Source: Candidatus Gastranaerophilales bacterium
GTDB taxonomy: Bacteria; Cyanobacteriota; Vampirovibrionia; Gastranaerophilales; Gastranaerophilaceae
Assembly: GCA_944327225.1 (NCBI GenBank)
Contig: CALVGZ010000003.1
Span: 62,001-126,000, forward strand
Reading direction: 5' to 3'
Length of the DNA: 64,000 nucleotides
Shown piece by piece: positions 42,548-52,773 of the stretch. The position numbers and the translations under genes were made by a program. Under the pieces are notes generated by a model. That model saw nothing but the letters and a program-made list of their open reading frames with translations. It made no database searches and was not told the origin of the DNA. Every line of letters starts with the position of its first letter. The stretch's first letter is position 1.

Positions 42548-42868
42548 ATGGGACTATTAATCGCACAAATGCGATTGGCACAAATTAATAGTTACAGGTC
42601 GGATTTAGAATATCAAATCCAACTTATTTCGACTACAAAGCTCGATTTATCTTCACAAATCAATGATCTTGTCGGTTTTGGCTCTGACATGGATCCAAAA
42701 AGCCCCGAAATGAAAGCTCTTGAAAAGAAAAAAGAAAGATTATATCAAGCAGAAAAAGCACTTGATCAAAAATTACAAAGACTGCAAACTCAACTTCAAA
42801 TGATTGATGCCGAAGAACAAAGCGTTAAACAGCAGCTTCAAAACTCAATCCAAAGAAGTTTTAGCTAA
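42548..42868 (+). CDS. Short MGL-family protein, coiled coil
   Basis: A 106-residue paralog-like protein. Residues 1-41 (MGLLIAQMRLAQINSYRSDL onward) align without gaps to the large protein at 27598-28620. The C-terminal half (about 55-106; KSPEMKALEKKKERLYQAEK) is a coiled coil like that protein's end. The variable middle domain is missing. No signal peptide. The last 4 nt overlap the convergent antiporter gene. Function unknown; probably restricted to this lineage. Confidence 0.75.
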   Translation: MGLLIAQMRLAQINSYRSDLEYQIQLISTTKLDLSSQINDLVGFGSDMDPKSPEMKALEKKKERLYQAEKALDQKLQRLQTQLQMIDAEEQSVKQQLQNSIQRSFS

Positions 42869-44163
42869 TTGAATACATACAATGCAACAAAAACAGCAAT
42901 GGCAAGTGCTAAATTATAATGTATGAAAGTAGGTATACAAGTATCTTTTATATGATTGTGCTGTCCATCTGCATTTAAACCGGCAGTTGGGCCTAATGTT
43001 GTGTCTGAAGCGGGAGAACCGGCATCACCAAGAGCAGCTGCGGCAGCAAGTAAAATTATAGTAAAAGGTACAGAGAAGCCCAATTTTATACATATCGGAA
43101 TAAACAATACCACTAAAATCGGTATTGTACCAAAGGAAGAACCTATTCCTATAGTTATAAGCAAGCCAATAAGAAGCATAAAAAACACAGCCAAAAACCT
43201 TGAATTTTGTATGAAAGGAATAACCGAATTCACTAAACTGTCTATTCCGCCGGATTCCTTAAGTACAAGTGCATACCCTGCACAAACCAACATAACAAAT
43301 GCAATATAGCCCATTAAACCGACACCTTCATCGGTTAGAATATCCATTTTTTTATGAGGAACAGCCCTAAAGCCGAATATAACACCCAGACCAACCAAAG
43401 CACCAAGCGGCAATGACCCGCTCCACAACTGAATAACAAGAGTTACTAATGCACCTAATAAAATTATATAGTGTTTTTTATTCAATTTTTCATCTTTATC
43501 ATTGATTAATATTTCATCTTTGCTTTCATATAGTCTTGGTTTTCTATATGTAATAAAAATTGCAACTAACAAGGCAACAAACATAGCAAAACCCAAAATC
43601 CAACTGTAGTGCCATACATCAGTTTTTAAAACTGTAACACCATTTTGCGACATATTATCGGCAATTAAACCTTGAAATATCAAACCAAAACCAGCAGGAA
43701 TTGCTATATAAGGAGCTTTTAACCCAAAAGCCAAAGCACAGGCAGCAGCTCTTCTATCAAGCTTTAATTTATTCATCAACCCCAAAAGAGGCGGAATTAA
43801 AATTGGAATAAAAGCAATGTGAACAGGAATTAAATTTTGAGATAAAACCGAAATAAAAACCAGAATACCCAAAAGTGCATATTTATTATTTTTTATAAAA
43901 ATTGATATTTTTTTTGCCAAAATTCCTGCCAGCCCCGTATGAGTCATTGCAGCAGCAAGCGTTCCCAAAAGAATATAGCTTAATGCAGTTTCAGAATTCT
44001 GTCCCATGCCTGAAATAAAGACATTCATGGTTTTTTCTATTCCCATGCCCGAAAGCAAACCTGCAACAATAGCACTTATCATCAATGAAAACAGAACATT
44101 AATTTTAAGCAAACATAAAATACATAGAACTATAACAGATATTAAAACAGGGTTGAATTCCAT
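42865..44163 (-). CDS. Na+/H+ antiporter (NhaC-like family)
   Basis: An inner-membrane protein with about 11-12 hydrophobic helices. The pattern ILLGTLAAAMTHTGLAGIL, NLIPVHIAFIPILIPPLL and the C-terminal ALGDAGSPASDTTLGPTAGL fits the Na_H_antiporter family (YuiF-like); some members move amino acids instead. 432 residues is typical. No ribosome site precedes the ATG. Confidence 0.87.
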   Translation of the reverse strand: MEFNPVLISVIVLCILCLLKINVLFSLMISAIVAGLLSGMGIEKTMNVFISGMGQNSETALSYILLGTLAAAMTHTGLAGILAKKISIFIKNNKYALLGILVFISVLSQNLIPVHIAFIPILIPPLLGLMNKLKLDRRAAACALAFGLKAPYIAIPAGFGLIFQGLIADNMSQNGVTVLKTDVWHYSWILGFAMFVALLVAIFITYRKPRLYESKDEILINDKDEKLNKKHYIILLGALVTLVIQLWSGSLPLGALVGLGVIFGFRAVPHKKMDILTDEGVGLMGYIAFVMLVCAGYALVLKESGGIDSLVNSVIPFIQNSRFLAVFFMLLIGLLITIGIGSSFGTIPILVVLFIPICIKLGFSVPFTIILLAAAAALGDAGSPASDTTLGPTAGLNADGQHNHIKDTCIPTFIHYNLALAIAVFVALYVFN

Positions 44164-44169
44164 AAAAAA

Positions 44170-44178
44170 ATACTATCA
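44170..44178 (-). promoter_or_regulatory. Possible extended -10 of antiporter gene, leaderless
   Basis: TGATAGTAT on the minus strand ends 6 nt before the ATG at 44163. A TATAAT at 44186-44191 is an alternative. No ribosome site in either case. Confidence 0.35.
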
Positions 44179-44186
44179 CAAAAAAA

Positions 44187-45635
44187 TTATAACTTAACAA
44201 CCTGATATACAGTAAAATTTATATCTTTTTCATATTTTACTCTTTTTAATAAATAAGTTGCATTTTTTGTCTTAAAAATCAAATCCCCGTTTTTCTGGGA
44301 AATATACAACATACTTACAAATTTTTGTTTAGATAACGCCCCCATTGATAAAATATAAAAATCATTCTTATTATTTTGATAAAACTTATCAAAGTCAATT
44401 AACTCGTCTTTTAATATAAATACTTTTTTTAAACCTTCATAAGATTTTTTATCCCTGCCAAAAACGTCATATATTCTAACCCCTTCTTTATAAAGATAAG
44501 TTGAAGCCCCCGGAGAAATATCACTCCACCACTCAAGAGTATATAATTTAGACAATCTTAATTTGCTGTCAGCCAGTATTAAATCAGATATTTTCTTCGA
44601 TTTAGACGAATAAATATATTCAATTTTTCCACCATCATGAACTGCAAAAGGGAAAAGCATAAAAAATAAGATAGAAGTATACAAAATTTTTAAAAATTTA
44701 TTGTAAAAAAGTTCTTTCTTATAAATCCAAAATAAAACAATAAAATAAATATAAAAAAAATAATGATTCCAATAACTCCCGTGATATCTGAAAATAAATA
44801 CATAACTAAGAGTTATATAAGTTCCGAGAACAAATATAAAAGCTTTTTTTGATTTTTTAAAAAGATAAAAAGGAATAAAATAAAATGTTATGCACGAAAC
44901 AAAATGAAGCAAAAAAGAAAAATAATTTTTACCATAAGGCACAATGACAAAATTGATTAATCTTTTTATAAAATCTTTTTGCCCAATATTTTCAGGGCTT
45001 TTAGCCAAAATAAACTGAATAAATAATTCAAGGAAGCAAAGTAAAAAAATTAAAAATATTTTTATTAATGTATCTTTTTTAATATTTTTACTTAAATACC
45101 TTTGTATCAACTCGAAAAAATATATAACACCCAGCCAAAAGCAACCAACAGCGGTCATTAAACTGGTATTTGCACATATTACAATTAAAAAAGTAAACAA
45201 ATAAGGACGCTTAAACCTTAAAGAGTAATAAGAACAAATCAAAAACAAAAACAAAATCCCAATACTATAACATCTTGCAACAGGAGCAAAATATAAAACA
45301 AAGGGACAAGAAAATGTAATAAAAAATTTTATAATCGGGCTGAAAGGTGCCTTTTTCCAAAGAATATAAATTGCAAAGACACAACAAAACCAATTAATAA
45401 AAAACATAGGATAAGGATATATATTTATCCAACTAAAAGGCTTTAAAATTAAATACCATAAAAAAGTATGCCCTTCGCTTGAAGCCAAATAAAAAATTTG
45501 ATTAATTTTAAGACAAGCAATATCAAAGGCATGAGCTTCATCCCAAAACGGAATTCTAAGAAAACAAATTAAAAAAGTTGAAATTGCGAAAATAATTATT
45601 GAATATTTATTTAAATAATTATTTACAAGCTTCAT
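44187..45635 (-). CDS. GT-C type membrane glycosyltransferase (paralog 1)
   Basis: A polytopic protein with about 10-11 helices and a C-terminal soluble domain, like ArnT/PMT-type (GT39/GT83-like) enzymes that use polyprenyl-phosphate sugars. The first loop carries the acidic pair in RIPFWDEAHAF, then EGHTFLWYLIL and ARCYSIGILFLF. The C-terminal domain has the conserved IYDVFGRDKKSY. Overlaps rdgB by 17 nt. Acceptor unknown. Two paralogs lie upstream in the same run. Confidence 0.82.
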   Translation of the reverse strand: MKLVNNYLNKYSIIIFAISTFLICFLRIPFWDEAHAFDIACLKINQIFYLASSEGHTFLWYLILKPFSWINIYPYPMFFINWFCCVFAIYILWKKAPFSPIIKFFITFSCPFVLYFAPVARCYSIGILFLFLICSYYSLRFKRPYLFTFLIVICANTSLMTAVGCFWLGVIYFFELIQRYLSKNIKKDTLIKIFLIFLLCFLELFIQFILAKSPENIGQKDFIKRLINFVIVPYGKNYFSFLLHFVSCITFYFIPFYLFKKSKKAFIFVLGTYITLSYVFIFRYHGSYWNHYFFYIYFIVLFWIYKKELFYNKFLKILYTSILFFMLFPFAVHDGGKIEYIYSSKSKKISDLILADSKLRLSKLYTLEWWSDISPGASTYLYKEGVRIYDVFGRDKKSYEGLKKVFILKDELIDFDKFYQNNKNDFYILSMGALSKQKFVSMLYISQKNGDLIFKTKNATYLLKRVKYEKDINFTVYQVVKL

Positions 45636-46224
45636 TTTTAAGCCATTCCAAAACCGAATTCAATGCTTTTGCCCGATGTGAAACTTTTGCTTTCTTATCC
45701 GGCTTCAACTCAGCCATTCCCATTTTCTCTGATTTTACATAAAAAACGGGATCATAGCCAAATCCGTTTTTACCCCTTCTTTCAAAAAGAATTTCACCCA
45801 AACATTCCTTTTGAACCTTGTATAAAATTTTACCTTCTTTATTTACAACCACCATCGCACAAACAAATTTTGCGTCTCTATTTTCCTTGTCCTTCATTGC
45901 ATTTAACAACTTATCAATTCTTTCATTGGCAGTTGGAGCATATCTGGCACTTTTTATTCCCGGGGCTCCGTCAAGAGCCATGACGCATAAACCCGAATCA
46001 TCCGCAAGAAACAGGTCGGTTTTACCATTTTTTGAAGCTTCTTTTGCCTTGCAATAAGCATTTTCAATAAAATCCAAACCGTCTTCAACAGGATTAAATT
46101 CACCCTCAGGCAAAACAAATTCAATATTATACTCTTTTGCAATAAGATTAATTTCTTCAACCTTGTGCATATTTCCTGTCGCGAGAGTAATTTTAACTGT
46201 TTTATTCAATTTTATTTTCCCCAT
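45619..46224 (-). CDS. rdgB: XTP/dITP diphosphatase (RdgB/HAM1)
   Basis: Removes non-canonical purine nucleotides such as dITP and XTP. LATGNMHKVEEINLIA, FLADDSGLCVMALDGAPGIK and the C-terminal KKAKVSHRAKAL are diagnostic. 201 residues is normal. Overlaps uppS by 13 nt and the following glycosyltransferase by 17 nt. Confidence 0.96.
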   Translation of the reverse strand: MGKIKLNKTVKITLATGNMHKVEEINLIAKEYNIEFVLPEGEFNPVEDGLDFIENAYCKAKEASKNGKTDLFLADDSGLCVMALDGAPGIKSARYAPTANERIDKLLNAMKDKENRDAKFVCAMVVVNKEGKILYKVQKECLGEILFERRGKNGFGYDPVFYVKSEKMGMAELKPDKKAKVSHRAKALNSVLEWLKNEACK

Positions 46225-46967
46225 CTGCGTTGACGTGTTGCAAATTCCTTAATAGCACCGGCAAGAGCATTTTTATCAAATTCCGGCCAATATATGTTTG
46301 TAATATATATTTCACTGTATGCTATTTGCCACAGCAAATAATTGCTTATTCTTTTTTCTCCGCTCGTTCTTATCAATAAATCGGGATCAGGAATGCTTTT
46401 AGTATACAAATAGCTAGAGACAAGCTCAGGAGTGATTTCATTTTCTGATATTTTATCTTTTACAATATTTTTTACGGCATTCACAATTTCATCTCTTGCA
46501 CCGTAATTAATTGCCACAGTAAGAATAACGCCTGTATTATTTTTTGTTGTTTCAACTGATTCTGCTAAAATATTTTGCAAATTTTGATTTAATTGAGATA
46601 AATTACCTATATAATTCATCCTTACATTATTTTCATTCAACTCTTTTAATTCATTTTTTAAAGTTGTTGCAAGTAAATCCATTAAAAAATCAACTTCTTC
46701 TTTTTTTCTGTTCCAATTTTCAGTAGAAAAAGCATATAAAGTTAAATACTTTACGCCAAAATCGCTGCATGCTCTTGTTGTTTTTTTAAGGGCATCAACT
46801 CCTCTTTTATGTCCCATCATAGAAGGCAACATACGTTCTTTTGCCCAACGCCTGTTTCCATCCATAATTATTGCAATATGATTTAAATTAGTATTCCTGA
46901 CAGCATCGATAATATCTTTTTCGGAATAATTCTCATCTAATGTTTTAACAGCTTCCTTAATTTCCAT
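46212..46967 (-). CDS. uppS: Undecaprenyl diphosphate synthase
   Basis: A cis-prenyltransferase that makes the C55 carrier for wall and glycan synthesis. The catalytic Asp lies in IAIIMDGNRRWAKER. YAFSTENWNRKKEEV and LIRTSGEKRISNYLLWQIAY complete the signature. I start at the ATG at 46967 with AGGGAAA upstream, not at the TTG at 46973. Embedded in an operon with three GT-C glycosyltransferases. Confidence 0.97.
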   Translation of the reverse strand: MEIKEAVKTLDENYSEKDIIDAVRNTNLNHIAIIMDGNRRWAKERMLPSMMGHKRGVDALKKTTRACSDFGVKYLTLYAFSTENWNRKKEEVDFLMDLLATTLKNELKELNENNVRMNYIGNLSQLNQNLQNILAESVETTKNNTGVILTVAINYGARDEIVNAVKNIVKDKISENEITPELVSSYLYTKSIPDPDLLIRTSGEKRISNYLLWQIAYSEIYITNIYWPEFDKNALAGAIKEFATRQRRWGK

Positions 46968-47021
46968 TAACAAATTTCCCTATAATAACCCTCTTAATTT
47001 TATATTAAAAACAAAAAGTTG

Positions 47022-48476
47022 CTATCGTTTATATACTTTTATTACATAACTCCAAAGATGAATTTTTGGATAACTTCTATAAGGAATAAAATAAACTATA
47101 TATTTTTCACCCCAAAAAGACACTACTCCCGTCTTTTCATCATATTTCCTTAAGGGATTATCTAGTTCATGATTTAAAAAAGCCGTTGTTGTCAAAAGAA
47201 CAGATTTGTCATCAACAAATCTATAAAAATTATCCGGATTAAATTTTTCAAGATTAAACTTCAATTGATTTCGCATACTTTTGTATGAAAATCTGTCATT
47301 ACCAAAAATATCATATATAACCACCCTATCTTTTAAATAAGGTAAACTCGAAGGAACAATATCGCTCCATGGGTCAAGGCAAAATAATTTTTTGCCTCTA
47401 AAAACTTTATTATTTAATATTTCATTTGCAATATATATCGAAGTTGAATTATTAATCGTAGTTAATTTAGAATCAATAAAAAGAGAACCTTTGAACATAA
47501 AACAACATAAAATCAAAATAAAACAAATATCTAAAGATTTTGATAATTTTCCATTTGAACGCAAAATCCAAATAGCAACAATAAAATACAAATAAAAATA
47601 AAAATAATGCCAAAAATTACCGCTATAAAAAAATGTGAATAAAATAACCATTGAAAAATATGTTAAAATGATAAAAAACAAGGGTTTTTTATCATTTTTT
47701 ACACAGTATTTTATAAAACAAAAAGCAGTAAATAATGCAATCAATCTTAAAATGCTCATCAAAACAGATTGAATTTTATACTCCGAAACTACAACAACAG
47801 GATTAAAAATATATGCCAAAAAATCTCTTAAAAATGCCATTTCCGGTGCTTGTTTTAAATAATCAGGCTCAAAAGAAAAAATTTGAACAACCACAATAAT
47901 TAAAGTCAGAGAAAAAATCAAAACCAATTTTAAAAAATCTTTTTTCTTTATATTTTCAAATAAAAAAATCACAGATAAATAAAAAGCCCCAATAAAAGCC
48001 ATAACGGAAGTATTCATGGATAAACATAATGCCAAAATATACATATAAGGTTTTTTAAATCTGACTTTATACAATGCAAGTGCAACAAAAAGAAACAAAA
48101 TTCCAATACTATAGCATCTTGCAACCACACCCCACAAAAATAAAAAAGGAACCGAAAAAGTTATTAAAAACTTTTCCAAATTCGAAAAAGGTGCTTTTTT
48201 CCATAAGACCAAAATTGCAAAAAAAGAAAACGCAGCATTCAAGATATAAATTGAATAAGGATAAAATAAATTCAACTTTGCAAAAGGTGCAATAATTAAA
48301 TACCAAACGAAAAGATGGCACTCCAATTTCATCATATCCAAAAATTCAAATAAATTACAATTTTGAGCAATTAACCACGCTCTTGCTTCATCCCAAAACG
48401 GAATACGCAAAAATGCAATTATTAAACATAAAATCAAATATATTAAAGGTATTATTTTATCAATCTTTTTATTCAT
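47022..48476 (-). CDS. GT-C type membrane glycosyltransferase (paralog 2)
   Basis: Same architecture as paralogs 1 and 3: first-loop RIPFWDEARAWLIA, ECHLFVWYLIIAPF, VLWKKAPFSN, ARCYSIGILFLF, about ten helices, then a soluble C-terminus with LFCLDPWSDIV, LPYLKDRVVIYDIFGNDRFS. 484 residues. It overlaps paralog 3 by 8 nt and precedes uppS by 54 nt. Predicted to transfer a sugar from a polyprenyl-phosphate donor on the outer face of the inner membrane; donor and acceptor unknown. Confidence 0.82.
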   Translation of the reverse strand: MNKKIDKIIPLIYLILCLIIAFLRIPFWDEARAWLIAQNCNLFEFLDMMKLECHLFVWYLIIAPFAKLNLFYPYSIYILNAAFSFFAILVLWKKAPFSNLEKFLITFSVPFLFLWGVVARCYSIGILFLFVALALYKVRFKKPYMYILALCLSMNTSVMAFIGAFYLSVIFLFENIKKKDFLKLVLIFSLTLIIVVVQIFSFEPDYLKQAPEMAFLRDFLAYIFNPVVVVSEYKIQSVLMSILRLIALFTAFCFIKYCVKNDKKPLFFIILTYFSMVILFTFFYSGNFWHYFYFYLYFIVAIWILRSNGKLSKSLDICFILILCCFMFKGSLFIDSKLTTINNSTSIYIANEILNNKVFRGKKLFCLDPWSDIVPSSLPYLKDRVVIYDIFGNDRFSYKSMRNQLKFNLEKFNPDNFYRFVDDKSVLLTTTAFLNHELDNPLRKYDEKTGVVSFWGEKYIVYFIPYRSYPKIHLWSYVIKVYKR

Positions 48477-49941
48477 AATTAATTTTATAAATACTAAAAG
48501 GTATATCAGGATAATATTCTTTTACTTCAAAAAATATTTTAACTTTCTCGCTCTCATAAATAAACCCTTTTCTTTTTTGATTATTCACAAACTCAATTTT
48601 TTTTGCAATAAAACCTTGAGAAAAGAAGTAATTTTGAGTAATCAAATAATTATTTTTATTTTTATCTAAATGTCTTATAAAATCATCTCCAAAAAAAGGA
48701 GTATTATAATATTTAGGAGTCAATTCAAGACTTTTTAAAGTGGTTCTGTCAAATCCGTTTAAATCGTAAATTTTAATATTATTTTTCTTTAAATACGGTA
48801 AAAGACCGGCAGAAAAAGGAGAAAACCAATCAAGACAAAAAAGTTTAGATTTTTTTAATTCGTTATTATTTACAATTTTATTCAACATAAAAGGATAATA
48901 TGAAGTATCAAGTGCAACATCTTTACCCTTTTTATAAAAAGAATACGGAATTAAAGATAATATCAAAAAAGCAATCAAGAATATATTTAAAACTTTATTT
49001 TTTTCAATTTTATCCCAACATATCCAAAGAGCAGCAACAAAATAAATAAAATAAAAATAATAATGCCACATCGCACCAATATAGATTTTAACAAAAAGAA
49101 ATGTCATTAAAAAATAGGTTATATAGAGAAAGAAGAATGCCTTTTTAGAATTTTTAAACAAAATATAAGGAATAAAATAAAACAAAATACAACCAATGAC
49201 AAAAAACAAAGTTTGAAAAATATTGTCCCCTATTGGCAAATATACAAAATGAACAAAATTTTGCAAAAATTGATTAATGGTTTCTAAAGGTCTTAACGGG
49301 GGGCTTTGTATATTAAAAAACTGAATAATCAAAGACAAAAAACCAAAAAATAAAATAATCAAAGAAGCTACTAATGATTTCTTTTCTATATTTTTAACAT
49401 TATTTTTTATATCGTAAGCAAAAAGACATAAAAAAGAAAAAGCTCCAAACATACCCATAACCGTTGTATTAAAACAAAAAACAATCAAAGAAGAAAATAA
49501 AACTGGCCTTTTAATATCGAATTTATAAAAATAACATAATAAAAATATAGCTAATACCGTTAGACCGTATGGTCTTGCGACAACCCCAAAATAATTAAAA
49601 AAAGGATATGAAAAAGTAATTAAAAACTTAATTAAATTATTAAACGGAGCTTTTTTCCAGAAAAAAATTATCAAAATCGAAACAATTACCCAATTTAAAA
49701 TCATCATTGAATAAGGATAAATATTAAAATCCGTTATTTTTAACAAAAAATACCACAAAACCGGATGCCCCTCGATTCTTGCAAGGTATAATATTTCAGA
49801 AATTCTTAAATTCGAGATTATATATGCGTAAGCCTCATCAAAAAAAGGGGTTCTTAATACTGAATAAAAAAAAGTTAAAACAATAAAGCACAAAGGTGCA
49901 ATTTTGAATATTGCTTTATCTACAATTTTTAAATAATTCAT
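48469..49941 (-). CDS. GT-C type membrane glycosyltransferase (paralog 3)
   Basis: First gene of the run. RTPFFDEAYAYIISN in the first loop, EGHPVLWYFLLKI, FWKKAPFNN, ARPYGLTVLAIF, and the C-terminal LFCLDWFSPF, LLPYLKKNNIKIYDLNGFDR. 490 residues. It is the most divergent of the three in the ARCYS motif. The start at 49941 has no ribosome site but a TGATATATT promoter 7 nt before it. Divergent from a PadR gene. Confidence 0.82.
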   Translation of the reverse strand: MNYLKIVDKAIFKIAPLCFIVLTFFYSVLRTPFFDEAYAYIISNLRISEILYLARIEGHPVLWYFLLKITDFNIYPYSMMILNWVIVSILIIFFWKKAPFNNLIKFLITFSYPFFNYFGVVARPYGLTVLAIFLLCYFYKFDIKRPVLFSSLIVFCFNTTVMGMFGAFSFLCLFAYDIKNNVKNIEKKSLVASLIILFFGFLSLIIQFFNIQSPPLRPLETINQFLQNFVHFVYLPIGDNIFQTLFFVIGCILFYFIPYILFKNSKKAFFFLYITYFLMTFLFVKIYIGAMWHYYFYFIYFVAALWICWDKIEKNKVLNIFLIAFLILSLIPYSFYKKGKDVALDTSYYPFMLNKIVNNNELKKSKLFCLDWFSPFSAGLLPYLKKNNIKIYDLNGFDRTTLKSLELTPKYYNTPFFGDDFIRHLDKNKNNYLITQNYFFSQGFIAKKIEFVNNQKRKGFIYESEKVKIFFEVKEYYPDIPFSIYKINYE

Positions 49942-49948
49942 AGTTATT

Positions 49949-49957
49949 AATATATCA
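49949..49957 (-). promoter_or_regulatory. Extended -10 promoter of GT-C operon, leaderless
   Basis: TGATATATT on the minus strand, then 7 nt to the ATG at 49941. Its -35 zone falls on the divergent PadR -10. Confidence 0.55.
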
Positions 49958-49964
49958 AAAATTA

Positions 49965-49973
49965 TGATAATAT
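49965..49973 (+). promoter_or_regulatory. Extended -10 promoter of PadR gene, leaderless
   Basis: TGATAATAT followed by 6 nt and the ATG at 49980. No ribosome site. Overlaps the -35 zone of the opposite promoter. Confidence 0.55.
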
Positions 49974-49979
49974 AAAAAT

Positions 49980-50471
49980 ATGTTTGAGATTGTAATACTT
50001 TATATTTTAAATAAATATGATGCGACTATTTACCGTCTTTCAAAAATAACGGACGAATTATTTTTTGCATTTTTAAAATCAAGCACAGGAACAATCAATC
50101 CAGCTCTTAAGAAATTAGAAAAAATGGGTTGCGTGGAATATATTGAAAAAATGACAGAAGGTGGTCTGCTGTCAAAAACATATTCTATAACCAAAGAAGG
50201 TAAAAAGCATTTGATAAATTTACTTTTATCCTTTGAAACAAAAAATCCTTACCACGTTATAAACGAAGCAAAAATTGCAACATATTGCAGTGATGTTTTA
50301 AATGTAAACGAATACATTGAATTTAAAAATAATCTGCTAAATATTCTTGAACTACATAAAATTAAGCTTGAAAAAGGTTTAAAAAACGAATACATAAATT
50401 TAAACGAAATTCAAAAAAGAACAATTGAAATAACTTTAGAAGAATTAGAAAGCCTGATTAAAGCCTTATGA
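49980..50471 (+). CDS. PadR-family transcriptional regulator
   Basis: A 163-residue winged-helix DNA-binding protein. The N-terminal domain (ILYILNKYDATIYRLSKITD, STGTINPALKKLEKMGCVEY, SKTYSITKEGKKHL) is typical PadR, and the C-terminal helical half should mediate dimerisation. It is divergent from three glycosyltransferases with overlapping promoters, so it probably controls them and itself. The stop overlaps the next start by 4 nt. Confidence 0.87.
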   Translation: MFEIVILYILNKYDATIYRLSKITDELFFAFLKSSTGTINPALKKLEKMGCVEYIEKMTEGGLLSKTYSITKEGKKHLINLLLSFETKNPYHVINEAKIATYCSDVLNVNEYIEFKNNLLNILELHKIKLEKGLKNEYINLNEIQKRTIEITLEELESLIKAL

Positions 50472-51775
50472 ATGTTAATATGATAGTTGAAGATATTATT
50501 AAAAATTCAATAGCAGACGAATTAAATATAAAAAAAGGCGATAAAATAATTTCAATTAATTATAAAACCCCAAAAGATATAATTGAATACAGCTATTTAA
50601 TTAATGATGAAAAAATTAATTTAATTGTAGAACACAAAAATAACATAATTGAAGAATACGAAATTGAAAAAGATTTTGATGAAGATTTGGGAATAATATT
50701 TACATCAGCAGTTTTTGATAAGGTTAAAAAATGTCAAAATCATTGCATATTTTGTTTTGTAGACCAACAACCAAAAGGATTAAGAAATAGCCTCTATATA
50801 AAAGATGATGATTGGAGACTTTCATATATTCAAGGAACATACATTACTCTCACTAATTTTAAAGAACAAGATTGGGAAAGAATTGAAAAATACCACATTT
50901 CACCCTTATTTGTTTCCATTCATACAACCAATCCTGCCTTAAGAGAAAAAATGACAAGAAACCCTAATGCAAAAAATATAATAAAACAATTGCAACGTTT
51001 TAAAAAAATAAAAACAAAACTGCATTGTCAAATTGTATTATGTCCTGGATACAATGACGGTGAAGAATTAAAAAGAACTTTAGAAGATTTGAAACAAGTC
51101 AAATCAATAATAAAATCTATTGCAATCGTTCCTGTCGGTATTTCAAAATTCAGAAAAGAAAAATTTAAAAAAGTTAATAAAAAAATTGCACTCGAAACTA
51201 TCAATATTGTTGAAGAATTTAATAAATCAATCAAAAAACAATTAGCAATGGTATCGGATGAATTTTTTATTATTGCAAAAAAAGATATTCCCGAAAAAAA
51301 ATACTATGGTGATTTTCTACAAATTGAAGACGGAGTCGGAGCAATCAGACTTTTAAAAGATAGCTTTAACAAAAATCTTAAAAAATTAAAAAAGAAATTA
51401 AAAAAACCTTCTAAAATATCTATTGCAACTGCCAAAACCGCAAGTAAAATTTTTAAAGAATTTAAGAAAGAAATCAATGTTAAAGGTCTTGACTTTGAAA
51501 TAATAGAAATCAAAAACAATTTCTTCGGTAAAGACATTAATGTTGCAGGCCTTATAGTTGGAAGTGACATTATAAATACCATTAAAGATAAAGAAATTGA
51601 ACATCTGATAATTCCATCTGTTATGCTAAAAAAAATTGGAGAAACTTTTGAAGAAACCTTTTTAGATGAAATTACAATAAATGACATAAGAGCTTTAAAT
51701 AAAAATATTAAAATCCATATTCTAAATGATTGTTATAGTTTCGATGAGATAAGAAAATTAATTAATTTACTTTAA
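50468..51775 (+). CDS. PDZ / radical SAM / DUF512 protein
   Basis: Resembles the cyanobacterial FeS family (PDZ-like N-terminus, radical SAM, DUF512). Residues about 15-70 form the PDZ-like part (NIKKGDKIISINYKTPKDII). The iron-sulfur motif is C89-x3-C93-x2-C96 (KCQNHCIFCFVDQ). DUF512 follows (PGYNDGEELKRTLEDL, YYGDFLQIEDGVGAI). Other bacteria carry related proteins. The reaction is unknown. Coupled to padR by a 4-nt overlap. Confidence 0.9.
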   Translation: MNVNMIVEDIIKNSIADELNIKKGDKIISINYKTPKDIIEYSYLINDEKINLIVEHKNNIIEEYEIEKDFDEDLGIIFTSAVFDKVKKCQNHCIFCFVDQQPKGLRNSLYIKDDDWRLSYIQGTYITLTNFKEQDWERIEKYHISPLFVSIHTTNPALREKMTRNPNAKNIIKQLQRFKKIKTKLHCQIVLCPGYNDGEELKRTLEDLKQVKSIIKSIAIVPVGISKFRKEKFKKVNKKIALETINIVEEFNKSIKKQLAMVSDEFFIIAKKDIPEKKYYGDFLQIEDGVGAIRLLKDSFNKNLKKLKKKLKKPSKISIATAKTASKIFKEFKKEINVKGLDFEIIEIKNNFFGKDINVAGLIVGSDIINTIKDKEIEHLIIPSVMLKKIGETFEETFLDEITINDIRALNKNIKIHILNDCYSFDEIRKLINLL

Positions 51776-51837: not shown

Positions 51838-52773
51838 ATGAATATAAGACCTATTACTTTAGCTGTAAAAAATTTTTCTTTAGCAAAAACAAACAATTTA
51901 AAAACCCGAAATTTAAAATTTACTGGTGATTCGTCTCAAAAAAAAGTTTCAGAAAGTGCAATGGAAGAAAGAACAAAAACTCTTATTAATCAACTTGAAA
52001 ATTTAGGTCAAGATTCAAAATCAGATTTAATGTCTTTAAAATACAGTTTAATGACAGAACTCACACATAAAAATTTTATAGGTTATACTCCGTTAACCTA
52101 TATTATTGAATCAAAAGATAATAGTGCAAGCACTATTAAAGCCATGCAAAAAATGACACCTTTAAAGTTTGCAAAAGCAATGCTAAGTTTGGATGATTTT
52201 GGCTATAATGCACTATTACACGCAATTTCAGCAAAATATTACGGAGCAGAAAAGATGGAAGCACTTGCTAAAGCTGCTCCTAATGAATTTAGAACACTAA
52301 ATCAGCTATCAAATAAATTTGGAGATACTCCCTTATTTTATGCAATGTTTACACCTTATGACGGAATAAGAAAATTAGAAGTTTTAGCTCAACACTCAAA
52401 AGCTGAAACTATAAAATCAATAAATAAAAAAGATAAGCTTGGATATACTCCGCTTATGTATGCTGCTATGGCAGAACAAGACGGTGCAAAAAAAATAAAA
52501 ATGCTGGGGGAAATAGATAAATTGGAAACAGTAAAATCTTTATTTGAAAACGATGGTTGCGGTTACTCGGCATTATCCTATGCAATACTTTCAAATTATG
52601 ACGGAGCAGAAAAAATAAGAGCCCTAAATAAAATTAGCCCCTCATTTACAAAACATCTCCTAACTCAAGGAGATAAATTCGGCAATTCGCCATTATTTTT
52701 AATAAGAGGAGATGTTAAAGATAAAGAAGAAAAAATTGAAGCCTTGAGAGAAATTGCACCAGAATTATTCTAA
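51838..52773 (+). CDS. Ankyrin-like repeat protein
   Basis: Residues about 70-311 consist of six or so repeats of about 35-38 residues built on D-x-GYTPLMYA-x-DGAEKIxAL (for example LGYTPLMYAAMAEQDGAKKI and CGYSALSYAILSNYDGAEKI). This resembles ankyrin repeats but the second helix is longer than usual. No signal peptide. The N-terminal NNLKTRNLKFTGD is basic. AAGGAGAG precedes the ATG. Likely protein-binding; partner unknown. Confidence 0.75.
   Translation: MNIRPITLAVKNFSLAKTNNLKTRNLKFTGDSSQKKVSESAMEERTKTLINQLENLGQDSKSDLMSLKYSLMTELTHKNFIGYTPLTYIIESKDNSASTIKAMQKMTPLKFAKAMLSLDDFGYNALLHAISAKYYGAEKMEALAKAAPNEFRTLNQLSNKFGDTPLFYAMFTPYDGIRKLEVLAQHSKAETIKSINKKDKLGYTPLMYAAMAEQDGAKKIKMLGEIDKLETVKSLFENDGCGYSALSYAILSNYDGAEKIRALNKISPSFTKHLLTQGDKFGNSPLFLIRGDVKDKEEKIEALREIAPELF

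Follow-up and report, generated by a model that had tools for sequence, protein, structure and literature searches.

In the survey by Zheng et al. (2011, PMC3160421), TA-led leaderless genes were described as lacking a Shine-Dalgarno (SD) site and having a TANNNT signal some 12 bp ahead of the start codon, and many Cyanobacteria genomes were reported to use neither SD-led nor leaderless genes. Gastranaerophilales, an order of Melainabacteria (NCBI taxonomy), was not found covered in the available part of the survey. In addition, the literature searched contained no relevant report on leaderless genes in Melainabacteria or on Gastranaerophilales start-site maps. Closely spaced divergent transcription has been studied in E. 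coli, in which bidirectional promoters of pseudo-symmetrical DNA produce divergent mRNAs and are occupied by one polymerase at a time (Warman, Grainger and colleagues; PMC12825309). Their start sites surround a common -10 and are in most cases separated by 18 bp, in others by 10 or 23 bp, and five such promoters exhibited no competition at base level, competition being possible when one side was activated (PMC12825309). Furthermore, an ATGT/ACAT repeat has been reported as the operator motif of LmrR and other PadR proteins (PMC3506622).

The window analyzed in this study was a 64,000-nucleotide stretch of DNA from a Candidatus Gastranaerophilales bacterium, and the features of the locus are listed in Table 1. 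The ATGs of padR (49980-49982, plus strand) and of the divergent GT-C gene (49941-49939, minus strand) are separated by 38 bp (49942-49979). The ORFs of the likely GT-C operon (42865-49941, minus strand) overlap or stand within about 50 bp of each other, and its three GT-C paralogues (44187-49941), which are 32-38% identical, flank uppS-rdgB.

Table 1. Genes and promoter elements of the padR/GT-C locus in window coordinates.
Feature	Position	Strand	Description
padR	49980-50471	+	PadR-family winged-helix regulator, 163 aa; Pfam PF03551 (E 7.4e-9, residues 6-78, over cut-off)
GT-C1	48469-49941	-	Multi-pass membrane protein, 490 aa, GT-C glycosyltransferase fold; heads the divergent operon
GT-C2	47022-48476	-	Likely operon
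UppS	46212-46973	-	Likely operon; Pfam PF01255
RdgB/Ham1	45619-46224	-	Likely operon; Pfam PF01725
GT-C3	44187-45635	-	Likely operon
Permease-like protein	42865-44163	-	Last gene of the likely six-gene operon
DUF512 radical-SAM protein	50468-51775	+	Pfam PF19238, PF04459, PF17820; overlaps padR by 4 bp
padR extended -10, TGATAATAT	49965-49973	+	TG-A-TAATAT, TRTGN type; then 6 nt (AAAAAT), then ATG
GT-C operon extended -10, TGATATATT	49957-49949	-	TG-A-TATATT; then 7 nt (AATAACT), then ATG
Pseudo-palindromic core, AATATATCA-N7-TGATAATAT	49949-49973	.	25 bp, both -10 elements back to back

Direct reading confirmed the arrangement described in an earlier note on this DNA, namely the 38-bp gap and the -10s at 6 nt (plus) and 7 nt (minus) from the ATGs. 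The motif common to both extended -10s is TGNTANNNT, and the TANNNT-type hexamer starts at -12 for padR and at -13 for GT-C1. Both upstream regions were scanned, and no SD-like 4-mer was found before padR or GT-C1; the earlier claim that neither gene has a ribosome site was thus borne out. By a simple scan of the spacer, a weak minus-strand -35 (TTTATA, 16-bp spacer) was detected overlapping the padR -10, and no good plus-strand -35 for padR was seen. The earlier note had also placed each -10 in the -35 zone of the other promoter. This was right only for about 2 bp of overlap when a 17-bp spacer was assumed, the remainder of the -10 falling in the spacer of the other promoter. The hexamers (49949-49954 and 49968-49973) are 13 bp apart, and the predicted start sites of padR and GT-C1 are 39 bp apart on opposite strands. 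The usual footprint of RNA polymerase extends from about -55 to +20, and at this hexamer distance the footprints on the two predicted promoters overlap.

The padR start codon could be pinned because an in-frame TAA (49968-49970) sits within the -10 hexamer, none of the codons between it and the ATG (TAT AAA AAT) is a start codon, and the Pfam PadR domain begins at residue 6. The extension of the padR ORF was equally short (166 codons) in nearly all congeners, in itself a sign of a conserved upstream stop. The start codon is predicted to be at or adjoining the +1.

The padR promoter was then compared across species. In the congeners, TGNTANNNT was located at exactly -15 in 26 of 28 genomes and at -16 in the other two, irrespective of the left neighbor, and none of the 28 had an SD site at padR. 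In the other genera of the family, 27 of 43 loci had the motif at -15 and 4 had it at -19, while 2 had a bare TATAAT at -12; 8 of the remaining 10 showed an SD-like site. Elsewhere in the order, in families other than this one, 1/20 loci had the motif at -15. Because it is kept at most loci of the family, yet nearly absent outside, the padR motif is a family trait and not a by-product of AT-rich DNA. Some loci differed in their mode of initiation. At two loci of genus g3 (L084 and L086), padR is joined to an upstream operon, its start codon overlapping the stop of the co-directional gene before it, and an SD replaces the -10. As a separate observation, padR also has an SD instead of the -10 at four loci of genus g26 (L079, L081, L082, and L085), where the DUF512 partner is missing beside padR.

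On the opposite strand, the extended -10 was found at a fixed place (leftmost base at -31 from the padR ATG) in 12 species. The GT-C ATG follows it after 6-8 nt in 10 of these, and in the other two (L009 and L020), which have no GT-C gene here, a longer leader separates it from UppS. All 14 GT-C neighbors lacked an SD (13 starts were scored, and the starts of L010, which has a second possible GT-C start, were judged by reading the sequence) and had a 5-of-6 TATAAT-like hexamer 6-8 nt before the ATG. Accordingly, all 14 appear to be leaderless or near-leaderless, and three geometries were seen: besides the back-to-back arrangement, the GT-C TATTAT of L010, L011, and L013 shares bases with the padR -10, which puts the predicted starts 20 bp apart, and L027 has a separate GT-C -10 of its own, further left. 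In L010, L011, and L013 this amounts to an apparent bidirectional promoter, with one -10 on opposite strands and both GT-C and padR seemingly leaderless. Within the window's clade, 7 nt and not 6 usually separate the GT-C -10 from the ATG (8 in L003), so a leader of 1-2 nt is possible. The congener tree, in which many inner forks are weak, distributed the back-to-back species over two or more separate groups, with L009 and L020 in addition; therefore, the divergent -10 pair is probably old in the genus.

The alignment of the spacer in related genomes, which the earlier note had suggested as a check, revealed conservation above that of four-fold sites. In the window's clade, identity was 74-95% for the spacer and 80-100% for the core, compared with 37-58% at the padR four-fold sites, and the 25-bp core showed no length change in 12 species. 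When 38-bp AT-rich spacers were simulated with the intergenic dinucleotide composition of the genome, 0.4% had TGNTANNNT at -15/-16 on one strand, and a fraction of roughly 1.5e-5 (3 of 200,000) had it on both. The conservation is stronger evidence for the promoter pair than this chance simulation.

The same signals were searched in the whole genome. Genome statistics were obtained from 855 kb of ~1.73 Mb with 742 called genes, and the pattern searches covered the whole genome. Genes were called with a simple codon-usage script and some start codons are wrong, which blurs the -15 peak but should not create it. TGNTANNNT was enriched only at -15, where it preceded 22 of 323 operon-lead genes; the background was about 1.3 genes per offset (Poisson ~1e-19). 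Moreover, TANNNT peaked at exactly -12 before the ATGs of operon-lead genes (16%, compared with roughly 2-10% at other upstream offsets), and operon-internal genes exhibited little of the -12/-15 signal. SD-like sites preceded 42% of lead genes and 54% of internal genes, and 40% of lead genes had neither an SD nor a -10 at the start. The pattern TGNTANNATN6ATG gave 75 matches genome-wide versus 8 in the reversed control. On these signals, a minority leaderless class exists in the genome beside the normal SD class. The offsets agree with those of the TA-led signal that was interpreted as leaderless by Zheng et al. (PMC3160421). Ten other genomes of the order showed a weak peak at the same position (6 at -15 against 0.7 background, 184 lead genes), a sample too small to rank genera.

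Compact divergent pairs were particularly often of this class: 8 of the 10 pairs at most 50 bp apart had a leaderless side, compared with 33 of 98 others (Fisher p = 0.006). No excess of pairs leaderless on both sides was found (7 of 109 observed, 5.2 expected), and therefore the pairing itself needs no special selection. One further compact pair (G000:C11:43603-43638, L053) has a spacer of 36 bp in which each side carries a -10-like hexamer at -12, and its genes are methyltransferase-like and family-2 glycosyltransferase-like. In addition, a glycosyltransferase-like gene flanked by wecB-like and gyrA genes (L056:9218-10426, minus strand, equal to G000:C4:49218-50426) has a leaderless-type -10, TGATATTAT, followed by 6 nt and conserved in several relatives.

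The padR product is the sole PadR-family match in the ~1.73 Mb genome and is matched by solved PadR structures. Matches to padR were obtained in 28/28 congeners, 113/117 family genomes, and 94/98 order genomes searched. The DUF512 gene follows padR at 66 of 71 loci and is its constant partner; the product has a PDZ + radical-SAM + DUF512 architecture, and its score against TIGR03279 (E 5e-124, 414 bits) is below the family cut-off of 574.7. An ankyrin-repeat protein gene lies at 51838-52773, downstream of the padR-DUF512 pair. The divergent side was far more variable. GT-C was the divergent neighbor in 14 of the 28 congeners but at none of the 43 loci from other genera, UppS-RdgB was the commonest other identified one, and 13 of the 43 other-genus loci had a co-directional gene upstream. 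Furthermore, the GT-C gene beside padR is not the same orthologue in all species (32-82% identity to GT-C1). Since the padR promoter is unaltered by most of these neighbor swaps, PadR is unlikely to be a dedicated regulator of GT-C genes, which it could still affect.

The GT-C label given earlier to the minus-strand gene was supported by structure. GT-C1 had no named glycosyltransferase family among its Pfam or NCBIfam matches and no sequence match in the PDB. For the AlphaFold model, built with 16 relatives (pLDDT 86.6), the nine best Foldseek matches were all GT-C enzymes (ALG12, AftA, ArnT, AftB, ALG3, and Emb), with probabilities of 0.96-1.00 and modest E-values (best 1.4e-3). The invariant residues were P32, D35, E36, E57, and H59, and the acidic pair D35 E36 comes after the first helix, so that the fold of GT-C enzymes and their acidic pair in the first external loop are both present. 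Lipid-linked glycan transfer may fairly be inferred for the operon because UppS is encoded together with the GT-C genes.

Taken together, the 38-bp spacer very probably contains two back-to-back sigma-70-type extended -10 promoters that produce leaderless or near-leaderless mRNAs and exclude each other. The leaderless, overlapping divergent promoters proposed in the earlier note are well supported by position-specific conservation and the matching genome-wide signal; the motifs, their fixed positions, the lack of SD sites, the conservation above neutral, and the genome-wide class were all computed. The strong extended -10s (TTATG-A-TAATAT and TTTTG-A-TATATT) would stand in for -35 elements, and both promoters would therefore fit in 25 bp. 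Each predicted start site would coincide with the start codon or be no more than about 1-2 nt away from it, and padR-DUF512 (plus strand) and the GT-C/UppS operon (minus strand) would be read as leaderless or near-leaderless mRNAs, whose translation is predicted to start by 70S ribosomes binding the 5'-terminal AUG. Steric exclusion is inferred from the geometry: two polymerases would not be on the spacer at once, and strong firing in one direction should therefore depress the other. It is highly improbable that transcription of both genes really starts farther upstream, within the opposite gene, and gives leaders devoid of an SD. Such leaders would suit the 40% of lead genes with neither signal, and AT-rich DNA contains many -10-like hexamers, but chance hexamers would be expected to give neither the sharp enrichment at a single offset nor the fixed -15/-16 position of the padR motif over most of the family, with an SD in most exceptions. 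There is a somewhat less than even chance that the two promoters act independently, their overlap reflecting compaction of an AT-rich genome and polymerase occupancy being too low for interference. This reading is compatible with the preferred one save for the last step, in which one direction depresses the other. It was in agreement with the finding that the five tested E. coli bidirectional promoters were too weak at base level for competition (PMC12825309), and with the generally leaderless character of short divergent spacers in this genome (8/10 versus 33/98), whereas the constant -10 to -10 geometry in 12 species, with the minus leader varying in length, suggests a constraint on the pair.

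The earlier note had gone further and regarded the spacer as a PadR switch for glycosylation genes, in which a PadR dimer would bind the 25-bp pseudo-palindrome TATCA-N7-TGATA, repress padR, and gate the divergent GT-C operon. This is unlikely. The one feature that keeps the idea alive is the dyad with its constant 7-bp centre in 12 species, within a core conserved as a whole; besides, PadR proteins can autoregulate (bcPadR1 and LmrR; PMC3506622) and this one has no second family match in the genome. However, any two opposed -10s would form a pseudo-palindrome, and the two TTTTG/TTATG extensions already explain the central bases. Wherever the divergent -10 is kept, so is the dyad's left half; elsewhere this half is lost while the padR -10 persists, so the left half is explained as a promoter element. 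Moreover, the operator ATGT-N7..11-ACAT was not found near the padR promoter at 70 of 71 loci (one match), the promoter is conserved with unrelated left neighbors, and DUF512 is the constant partner. The dyad occurred at 11 sites in 1.73 Mb, and the reversed control gave 3. Of the other sites, the most suggestive one (C4:50437) is intergenic and precedes the leaderless glycosyltransferase-like gene of that contig. It was rejected as a regulon site: among 15 relatives the -10 stays in many while the other half is lost, and therefore it is not evidence for a PadR regulon. Nor does a switch follow from steric overlap alone: the basal activity of the five tested E. coli bidirectional promoters was too low for polymerases to compete (PMC12825309). 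PadR may still exert some control at the spacer, but a PadR-run glycosylation switch is unproven and somewhat disfavored. It is also conceivable, though decidedly doubtful, that the 25-bp double -10 has long served as a promoter "socket", in which the padR-DUF512 side stayed fixed and the other side took different genes (the UppS operon, GT-C paralogues) with their ATGs almost exactly at the start site, PadR on the dyad controlling whichever gene was plugged in.

Two back-to-back promoters of leaderless type would make this locus a clear example, open to testing, of leaderless expression that has been retained across a bacterial family known mostly through metagenomes and belonging to a sister lineage of the cyanobacteria. 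The results suggest that leaderless starts let divergent promoters shrink to less than 40 bp. Where padR has an SD in place of the -10, on absorption into an operon or in particular genera, a change of initiation mode becomes directly visible. If the two polymerases compete, cell-surface glycosylation would be coupled with a conserved, uncharacterized radical-SAM gene.

The component parts are all of known kinds. What is new is the deep conservation, the leaderless class in an order for which no report was found, and one promoter pair serving different neighbors. Compared with the TA-led genes of the Zheng survey (PMC3160421), the hexamers at -12 (padR) and -13 (GT-C) and the lack of an SD match the class, but the extended TG (TRTGN) form is prominent here and the lineage is Gastranaerophilales. 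The protein encoded by the gene overlapping padR shares its architecture with TIGR03279 ("cyano_FeS_chp"), and differs in scoring below the cut-off and in being linked to padR across the family. With bcPadR1 and LmrR (PMC3506622), padR has in common the winged-helix PadR domain and possible control at its own promoter; unlike them, it lacks the ATGT/ACAT inverted repeat, and its conserved partner is the DUF512 radical-SAM gene. Like the E. coli bidirectional promoters, the padR spacer is pseudo-symmetrical and divergent and is predicted to admit one polymerase at a time, but its predicted starts, 39 bp apart, are outside the 10-23 bp range and there are two separate -10s, whereas the congeners L010, L011, and L013 show the E. 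coli type of spacing (20 bp) with shared -10 bases.
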